From a virus, in the IMG/VR virus record IMGVR_UViG_3300040816_000387, positions 1-59,121 of that record: a stretch of DNA of 59,121 nt, one strand, 5' to 3'. How positions within the stretch are numbered: position 1 is the first letter of the stretch; every line of letters starts with the position of its first letter. A program made the translations under genes and the position numbers. Under the pieces are notes generated by a model, which saw only the letters and a list, made by a program, of their open reading frames with translations, was not told the origin of the DNA and did not search any database. Positions 29,784 through 31,047 of this stretch are shown here, piece after piece.

Positions 29784-29999
29784 TTATTTTAGATTAGGAT
29801 ACTTCTTTCTTATTCTTTTTATTTGATCCTTATATCTATCTTGATTATATTTATAATCGTGTATCATGGCTTCTAATTCAGGATCTTTTGTTGCATTGTA
29901 CAATCTCCGCAACATTTTCACCTGCTTACCAAAAGACAACAAAGATAATAGAGACGCTAATAAACCTTCTTTTAAAACCTCAGATTTATCTTGCTTCAT
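29784..29999 (-). CDS. small helical protein upstream of tape measure
   Basis: 71 residues, basic and helical ('LLASLLSLLSFGKQVKMLRR', 'MIHDYKYNQDRYKDQIKRIR'). The N-terminal hydrophobic stretch LLASLLSLLSF could be a membrane or packing helix. No family recognised. It has its own promoter-like box 14 bases before the ATG and lies six bases before the tape measure gene, so the two probably share a transcript. A role in tail assembly is inferred from position. Confidence 0.6.
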   Translation of the reverse strand: MKQDKSEVLKEGLLASLLSLLSFGKQVKMLRRLYNATKDPELEAMIHDYKYNQDRYKDQIKRIRKKYPNLK

Positions 30000-30038: not shown

Positions 30039-30263
30039 TTAATAGCTACTCTTCTTAGGTTGGCTTTCTTTTATATACTTCTTTATCTGCTCTATATACA
30101 ACCTCCTTAAAGATATAGGCATATTATATACTTCAGTAAAAGATAAAGAACCTTTACTGTGATAAGCTAAATCTAAAATCTCTTTATAGAAGCTAAGTTT
30201 ATACTTTTGCGTCAGGCCAAAAAAACTGTACCCCGATGGGAACTTCAGCGGGAAATGTTTCAC
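30039..30263 (-). CDS. putative tail assembly chaperone extension, maybe made by frameshift
   Basis: 74 codons from a GTG, lying in the +1 frame of the gp26-like gene and overlapping its last 65 bases. The part beyond the overlap, 'GLTQKYKLSFYKEILDLAYH' followed by 'FTEVYNMPISLRRLYIEQI', is helical and protein-like, while the first 13 residues look like out-of-frame noise. The two frames meet at seven T's (30219-30225) where 'QFF' of the gp26-like frame lines up with 'SFF' of this one. A +1 or -2 slip there would give a 335-residue fusion. Independent GTG initiation is the alternative. The location before the tape measure is where G/GT-type chaperones are found. Confidence 0.6.
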   Translation of the reverse strand: MKHFPLKFPSGYSFFGLTQKYKLSFYKEILDLAYHSKGSLSFTEVYNMPISLRRLYIEQIKKYIKESQPKKSSY

Positions 30264-31047
30264 CAGTCTCTCTATCTGTCACCTCCACTGACAGGTCTAT
30301 CCCAGGCTGTACTTCATCAATATACCTTCTTAAGGCTCTAGCATCATAAGCCATAAGCCCTTCTTCAACAAACTGTCTAATAGCCCTCTCATCTCTATTA
30401 CCATCAACAGAAACGATTTGATAAACGAATTGAGTAGAAGCACTCTTTGTTTGACCGCTAAAAGCTTTTTTATTTTTTTCAACCTCAGCAGAGTACCTCT
30501 CTTGATCTGCTTTAGTTAGCATTTTAAAAGAAACTTTTACTCCAGATTTAGGAAGTTCAAAATCAAACTCATTCACATTTGCTTCTTTTAGAAACCTATC
30601 CTCTAAATAGTTTAGCTTTAATTGAGTTAAATCTATCTCAGTTCTTTGCTGTTTACCGCTAGGAGTCTCTATAAAAGCATCGTAATCATTACCATAACCG
30701 TAAATTCTGGCTGCTACTGTTAACGCATCTATATCTCCAATCAGCATATCAGATAAATTAACATTAGGAGTTACTATAAGAGACTGTAGAAATTTATCTA
30801 TTACAACTCCTTTTCTTATAAAAGACTCAGTAGTTAAGATATCTTCCTCTTTAGCAGTCATGTACTTTACCTCTATAGTCCCACTACTTAATGGGCTATC
30901 TTTTGAATAAAGCAGTCCTCTAGAAGGCAAATCAATAATTTCTGTAGGTACTTTGTAGGTAGTAACTTCTTGTGGCTGATTTTCTGCATTAGCAGAAGAA
31001 GGGATAGCACTGCCATCCCTTTTCGGTAATTCATTTTCTATTTTCAT
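30199..31047 (-). CDS. T4 gp26-like baseplate/tail assembly protein
   Basis: 282 residues. 'TEIIDLPSRGLLYSKDSPL', 'GTIEVKYMTAKEEDIL' and 'RKGVVIDKFLQSLIVTPNVN' form the pattern of the T4 gp26 family (baseplate hub assembly), in which related proteins of many phages bind the tape measure. The C-terminal half includes 'KMLTKADQERYSAEVEKNKK' and 'EEGLMAYDARALRRYID'. It lies downstream of the tube gene and upstream of the tape measure. The end of the gene carries a T7 run that may permit frameshifting into the next frame. Confidence 0.75.
   Translation of the reverse strand: MKIENELPKRDGSAIPSSANAENQPQEVTTYKVPTEIIDLPSRGLLYSKDSPLSSGTIEVKYMTAKEEDILTTESFIRKGVVIDKFLQSLIVTPNVNLSDMLIGDIDALTVAARIYGYGNDYDAFIETPSGKQQRTEIDLTQLKLNYLEDRFLKEANVNEFDFELPKSGVKVSFKMLTKADQERYSAEVEKNKKAFSGQTKSASTQFVYQIVSVDGNRDERAIRQFVEEGLMAYDARALRRYIDEVQPGIDLSVEVTDRETGETFPAEVPIGVQFFWPDAKV

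Follow-up and report, generated by a model that had tools for sequence, protein, structure and literature searches.

The locus lies on the minus strand of a 59,121-nucleotide viral sequence (IMG/VR record IMGVR_UViG_3300040816_000387, analyzed over its full length and here called the window), in a block of genes for a contractile tail (Table 1). The initial annotation had called one of these genes gp26-like and had placed it between tail tube and tape measure. The label is backed by a match of the gene product to phrog_150 ("baseplate hub," E = 3.4e-13) among the PHROG families, and the placement is borne out by the phrog_4542 gene upstream and a gene of tape-measure size downstream. The same order of tube, chaperone, and tape measure is annotated in immuto, SP-15, and LIS04. 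The 1160-aa gene itself retrieved no tape-measure family from Pfam or PHROG and owes its name to its size, its place, and the annotation of that place as tape measure in immuto and SP-15. Its C-terminal part matches PHROGs named peptidase or endolysin (phrog_23178, 1.4e-15), which may reflect low complexity or a stretch common to tape measure proteins and not an enzyme. The 71-aa ORF that precedes it shows a weak, below-cutoff match to the Pfam family Stirrup (1.9e-4), and Mel-JY01 has a 216-base gene in its place.

Table 1. Tail genes of the window and features of the predicted frameshift region
Feature	Position	Strand	Basis or remark
Sheath gene	33642-31675	minus	Pfam sheath, 1.7e-17
Tail tube-like gene, 180 aa	31087-31629	minus	phrog_4542 tail tube, 1.6e-20; upstream of the gp26-like gene
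Frame-0 gp26-like gene, predicted short chaperone form (TAC-N), 282 aa	30199-31047	minus	phrog_150; relatives
Predicted shift site, CAG TTT TTT TGG	30217-30228	minus	T7 at 30219-30225
+1-frame extension TAC-C (gp51-like module), GLTQKYKL...SSY, 59 codons from GGC at 30218-30216	30039-30218	minus	Stop codon at 30041-30039
Predicted TAC-NC (long form), 335 aa, upon skipping of one T in the run	30039-31047	minus	
GTG, sole listed start of the second frame	30261-30263	minus	Judged not needed; 22 of 59 representatives lack ATG/GTG/TTG there
71-aa ORF between chaperone and tape measure	29784-29999	minus	
Probable tape measure gene, 1160 aa	26295-29777	minus	Size and place

Rereading of the minus strand upheld the sequence and coordinates of the initial annotation, including the run of seven T's, the end of frame 0, the 59-residue second frame, the overlap of 65 bases between the two ORFs (30199-30263), and the lone GTG start. 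The strand reads GGG GTA CAG TTT TTT TGG CCT GAC GCA AAA GTA TAA, with the T run (30225-30219) aligned to codons in frame 0. This frame ends at 30199 with GVQFFWPDAKV; the +1 frame, which is equivalent to the -2 frame, yields FFGLTQKYKL... and continues for 59 codons past the T run. Pfam holds no family for either product, and the second-frame ORF (P0002) on its own retrieves no PHROG. When the two are fused, the match to phrog_150 grows from profile positions 10-233 (50.6 bits), as obtained with the short form, to positions 10-264 (52.8 bits). Nothing marks out the T run when this genome is considered by itself: 12 of the 13 Phe codons of the gp26-like gene are TTT, seven T's arise in 85% of cases when its codons are shuffled synonymously, so that a single-genome chance test lends no support, and the window (33% GC) holds 40 runs of at least seven T's on both strands together. 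The evidence for the site is therefore comparative.

As relatives we took the best 80 of at least 600 matches among viral contigs, with 41 to 62% amino acid identity to the gp26-like gene. In all 80, the +1 frame holds the extension (three of these extensions run off the end of the contig), so that the window and its relatives share a +1 relation and not a canonical X XXY YYZ heptamer with a -1-frame extension. A parse of the site covers 80 of the 81 sequences (79 relatives and the window) and finds it conserved at the 3' end of the first frame, as exactly TTTTTTTGG in 75, TTTCTTTGG in three, TTTTTATGG in one, and TTTCTATGG in one, with frame 0 ending 18 to 30 bases past the start of the site. 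The remaining sequence (L054) lies outside the parse pattern and was recovered in the codon analysis below, with CTT as its first codon. The check on relatives proposed in the initial annotation thus came out in favor of the shift, with the frame relation and extension kept throughout and the exact T-run site in nearly all parsed cases. The same observations bear on a mundane explanation, namely, an assembly or sequencing error, to which homopolymers are prone: the frame relation is shared by 80 other contigs and by the deposited sequences of Mel-JY01, immuto, and SP-15, which leaves such an error a negligible chance.

Codon usage at the site was examined in 85 genes (window, L002 to L081, L082, L084, L199, and L200), which include those of the cultured Mel-JY01 and Flavobacterium phage immuto and of two further contigs and which greedy dereplication at below 80% amino acid identity reduced to 59 representatives. 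The slip-site Phe codons are TTT without exception, in 58/58 cases in the first column and 54/54 in the second (112/112 together). The six other alignment columns in which at least half of the residues are Phe have TTT in 62, 88, 86, 72, 83, and 89% of the cases. Where the site codons do not specify Phe, they are CTT in the first column and CTT (three times), TTA, or CTA in the second. Ten loci from genome bins were also inspected, and the nine that reach the end of the gene, read by eye, keep the +1 relation; the tenth (L229) is a partial match. Seven of these nine have TTT TTT TGG, and L223 has TTT TGG (preceding codon not printed); L222 has TTT TTT TTC, which indicates that TGG is not needed at the site. 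Six of the ten bins bear names from the Bacteroidota (Flavobacteriales twice, Winogradskyella, Flavobacteriaceae, Saprospiraceae, and Sphingobacteriales), binned phage contigs being weak evidence for the host.

We then asked where the +1 frame is entered. Among the 59 representatives, it contains no stop from codon -3 to codon +30 relative to the start of the extension, yet stops are frequent just upstream, with 5 genes having one at -4, 12 at -6, and 13 at -10, suggesting that the frame is entered near the site. Past this point, the extension evolves as a protein, as indicated by substitutions per site of 0.233, 0.167, and 0.461 at the first, second, and third codon positions of the +1 frame (467 nonindependent pairs). 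In tblastn searches, it retrieves Mel-JY01 (2e-11) and immuto (2e-3), with gp51 of S-SRM01 reached just at an E value of 1. This conserved extension often lacks a start of its own: 22 of the 59 representatives have no ATG, GTG, or TTG from the last +1 stop up to the site, and 16 of these 22 have none over the next 20 codons as well; the window itself retains its one GTG. Predicted RNA structure downstream of the site does not clearly exceed the control (mean z, -0.89 versus -0.57).

These data weigh on the possibility that the second frame represents an overlapping gene in its own right, translated from its own GTG, ATG, TTG, or rarer start inside the gp26-like gene. It can draw on the GTG at 30263 in the window, on the 37 of 59 representatives with some candidate start upstream of the site, on the ATG-started second parts of three divergent relatives discussed below, and, for initiation at rare starts, on the presence of at least one CTG, ATT, ATC, or ATA in the relevant stretch of each of the 22 start-less genes. 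CTG is frequent as the second codon of the extension; L015, L051, L065, L067, and L072 have no CTG in the stretch. The candidate starts vary in both codon and place from one gene to the next, however, and the 22 genes without an upstream start, 16 of them without one over a longer distance, speak against a separate gene, as does the exclusive use of TTT at the site, which it leaves unexplained where the +1 stop lies a few codons upstream. We regard a separate gene as decidedly unlikely.

More distant relatives separate the features of the site that are essential from those that are not. The T run is broken while the frame relation is kept in LR756508 (TTT CTA TTC) and its relatives (TTC TTT TGG), BRock-like sites read CT(A/G) TTT followed by CGN or CAG, and others read TTT TTT CAC (SP-15), TTT TTT AGT (LIS04), and TTC TTT CGT (SagM-GXN1). 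All 118 loci of the +1 groups, and 74/74 after dereplication, have a TTT in frame 0 with C or T as the next base inside the stretch that permits a shift. The set of 118 counts BRock (L090) as L203 and includes L185, L186, and L189, which are not among the 30 distant loci with printed site codons; it excludes L193, L198, and LR756511 (L088), where the second part lies in another frame, as well as the partial matches L201, L202, and L218, L182 (SP-15 again), and the genome-bin loci. Where the stretch spans 12 codons or fewer, 26 of 26 genes have the site against 1.6 expected from stretches of the same length in the same genes, a control that keeps protein-level conservation of the FF pair in, which the test of TTT codon columns (112/112) removes. 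We use the 26-gene figure because the expected value for all 74 omits genes too short for a control stretch. In the BRock-like group, with the site located via the last TTT and read alongside the codons printed for 15/15 loci, all 10 distinct genes have TTT at a fixed place four codons ahead of the stop, against a TTT share of 37% among the Phe codons of the loci, and all 10 have a +1 stop 18 bases upstream. Judged from these alignments, the essential element is UUU with C or U as the next base and not seven T's, a pattern that fits +1 re-pairing of tRNA-Phe. The seven-T site of the initial annotation accordingly holds as the prevalent form among close relatives, while the run as such appears dispensable, UUU with a following C or U being present in 118/118 loci.

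The variant sites also discriminate among mechanisms. A -2 ribosomal shift of the kind known from Mu, adding one extra Phe, would reach the same frame, and the seven T's of the window permit it; by codon reasoning, however, TTC TTT TGG, CTG TTT CGN, TTT CTA TGG, and TTT CTA TTC allow tRNA-Phe to re-pair at +1 and not at -2. A +1 shift is thus likelier, and we give the -2 shift very little credence. The initial annotation had left the direction as +1 or -2, as in Mu, and not -1: the exclusion of -1 stands, with all 80 extensions in the +1 frame, and the likeness to Mu does not. Transcriptional slippage at the T run, yielding mixed mRNAs, has the seven T's and the AT-rich genome in its favor; in relatives with TTT CTT TGG, TTC TTT TGG, or CTG TTT CGN the run is cut to three or four T's with the frame relation kept, making slippage of the polymerase equally improbable. 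On the evidence of the relatives, we rejected the -2 shift, transcript slippage, internal initiation as a general mechanism, and assembly error.

Three relatives depart from this pattern, and the chaperone family is accordingly not uniform. L193 and L198 have TTC TTG TAT and TTC CTT TGG in place of the site, neither with a TTT codon, and in both the second module is an ATG-started gene past the stop of the first gene and in another frame, the loss of the site coinciding with the loss of the +1 relation. The two loci represent a natural uncoupling of the two chaperone parts. LR756511 (L088, from a 595-kb uncultured phage) carries the module in the -1 frame, where its ATG overlaps the stop of the first gene (TAATG). 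The initial annotation had named relatives with separate genes, or with a broken T run and both frames intact, as speaking against a frameshift; such an arrangement does occur in L193 and L198, two distant relatives, but both also show an altered frame relation and an ATG belonging to the second part itself.

Taken together, these analyses make it very probable that a programmed +1 ribosomal frameshift produces a short and a long form of a tail-assembly chaperone, as the initial annotation had proposed, a reading sustained by the +1 relation in 80/80 relatives, the TTT codons in 112/112 site positions, and the 22 of 59 representatives devoid of an upstream start. Its sequence basis is supported for the gene arrangement, the +1 relation, the site codons, the conservation of the extension as a protein, the missing starts, and the gp26/gp51 homology described below; we infer the ribosomal shifting itself, its frequency, the slipping tRNA, and the chaperone function. 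Under this model, most ribosomes would stay in frame 0 and make the 282-aa TAC-N. A minority would pause at TTT TTT TGG with tRNA-Phe in the P site, which would re-pair one base forward, from UUU to UUU, and reading would resume at GGC CUG to give the 335-aa TAC-NC with its C-terminal gp51-like module. By analogy with gpG and gpGT of lambda, many short and few long copies would then cover the tape measure protein and bring in subunits of the tube.

A confident AlphaFold model of the frame-0 product (pLDDT, 87.9; pTM, 0.81) matches SP-15 proteins and those named "T4-like baseplate hub assembly" among viral models. A Foldseek search of the PDB with this model gave nothing significant. The HK97 chaperone 2ob9 is the sole PDB entry above a probability of 0.1 among the 50 matches listed (probability, 0.66; E, 0.28), and its comparison with the model (VIA; Z, 4.5; rmsd, 5.7; 92 aligned) ties with unrelated Cren7 entries; we take this match to a predicted structure as a hint. 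A profile of the short form retrieved no relative among solved structures, just a de novo design at an E value of 0.13.

The extension can be placed more precisely by way of the Kyanoviridae and some other T4-like phages, in which gp26 is followed by a short gene annotated as gp51 or "baseplate hub assembly catalyst." Among the cyanophages (80 loci with 56 distinct genes, one of them truncated), a single codon separates T TTT TTC from the stop of gp26 in 56/56 distinct genes. Together with an upstream GGAGG in 39 of the 56, this end of the cyanophage gene (L083, L091, L092, and L100 to L181) resembles a Shine-Dalgarno-stimulated -1 site, and the annotated records list gp51 separately. In 11 annotated records of the -1 group, the module is in the -1 frame throughout; T TTT TTC is found in eight, T TTT TTT in two (HTVC008M and phiN3), and neither in Vibrio phage K351. 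For Aeromonas phage 65, HTVC008M, and Sf-CH8, there is no ATG, GTG, or TTG for the module from the last stop of its frame to 50 bases past the gp26 stop; the remaining records have one near the gp26 stop.

We built fusions for the +1 and -1 groups on paper, omitting Vibrio phage K351 from the latter (no site), and compared them with hhalign. The +1 and -1 fusions align end to end (global, 98.1, E = 9e-13; local, 95.9). The -1 fusion matches T4 gp26 with the module outside the match (global, 99.2; local, 98.6) and T4 gp51 with the C-terminal module included (global, 96.1; local, 94.9); gp26 and gp51 of T4 compared with each other give 63.7 (global) and 59.2 (local). The +1 profile compared directly with the single T4 gp26 and gp51 sequences gave no match, and the link runs through the -1 group. 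By phrog_150 and by this route, both parts of the predicted long form are homologous to T4 gp26 and gp51. What the initial annotation had termed a chaperone-like extension is thus indeed a conserved extension, and its description can be refined to a module related to the gp51 annotated in cyanophages. Because the -1 fusion matches gp26 without the module and gp51 with it, T4 gp26 looks like a short form, whereas T4 gp51 has the look of a long form encoded outright, and genes 26 and 51 of T4 (L099, positions 115802-117228 of the record) may be duplicated genes that replaced one frameshifted gene. Vladimirov, Gautam, and Davidson (2022) reportedly described frameshifting in several T4-like groups and took T4 genes 26 and 51 to be the short and long forms. 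A 2010 review of T4 counts gp26 and gp51 among the hub assembly chaperones and describes gp51 as required yet missing from the particle; it also notes genetic evidence that places gp26 in the hub (PMC3004832).

Our joint reading, which we favor with moderate confidence as a whole, is that a homologous chaperone gene has switched recoding direction, with +1 shifting at UUU_Y in the lineage of the window and among phages infecting Bacillus, Listeria, Streptococcus, and Streptomyces, -1 shifting at U UUU UUC in cyanophages as well as some other T4-like phages, a second part with its own ATG in a few relatives, and two wholly separate genes in T4, and that the +1 class would be a large natural bacterial family of sense-codon sites with no stop codon, mostly no Shine-Dalgarno-like element, and no clear RNA structure. 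Homologous sites that shift by +1, by -1, or not at all to give the same products would offer a direct test of what sets the direction and rate of shifting. The reading also corrects annotation, the extension being missed or given as short ORFs in deposited genomes: immuto gp038, SP-15 SP15_046, and BRock gp135 lie in the extension frame by coordinate arithmetic. Deposited short "hypothetical" ORFs in that frame, at 3839-3949 in L084, 3755-3874 in L087, and 3692-3874 in L090, are probably fragments of long forms.

Tail-assembly chaperones are a classic and conserved phage use of frameshifting, to which a 2016 review calls T4 the exception (PMC5009743). Frameshifted chaperones and -1 shifting in T4-like phages are already published, and the widespread +1 version appears to be new, while other relatives seem, from their sequences, to slip backward or use separate genes. 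Our literature search found no description of +1 shifting in gp26-type genes; Vladimirov et al. (2022), outside its coverage, may mention one. With the T4-like chaperones the window family shares membership of one family by profile, a gp26-like short form with a gp51-like module, and poly-T at the 3' end of gp26, and poly-T -1 signals are described in T4-like TAC-N genes in section 3.8.3 of PMC12846349. The window family differs from the -1 group in that its second frame is +1 rather than -1 and its site consists of UUU plus a following C or U, with no heptamer required. Furthermore, GGAGG stands upstream of the site in 39 of 56 cyanophage genes, whereas 46 of the 59 +1 representatives have no Shine-Dalgarno-like motif in the 20 bases upstream. 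The gpG/gpGT pair of lambda, as outlined in the same 2016 review, is a tape measure chaperone with a short form and a long form extended by a -1 frameshift (PMC5009743); the predicted forms of the window would be alike in this division and differ in using +1. That tail-assembly chaperones can shift by +1 is already known from the tail gene of HSTV-2, for which that review calls the shift "very likely +1" (PMC5009743), and from the PRFect training set, given as containing 350 forward sites, mostly in chaperone genes (PMC10885494); the passages of these sources on such sites describe neither a gp26-type gene nor a UUU_Y family. Plant amalgaviruses, with unrelated genes and hosts, have the proposed +1 motif UUU_CGN (PMC5052127); the BRock-like and SagM-GXN1 sites read UUU_CGN or UUU_CAG, most members of the window family having UUU_UGG. 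A bacterial parallel is release factor 2, with a +1 shift at CUU_UGA (PMC5009743, PMC10885494) and UUU_U in a minority of species (PMC5009743): both would involve a peptidyl-tRNA slipping by +1 on a U-rich codon, and the window family differs in having no stop after the slip codon and, for the most part, no upstream Shine-Dalgarno-like motif.
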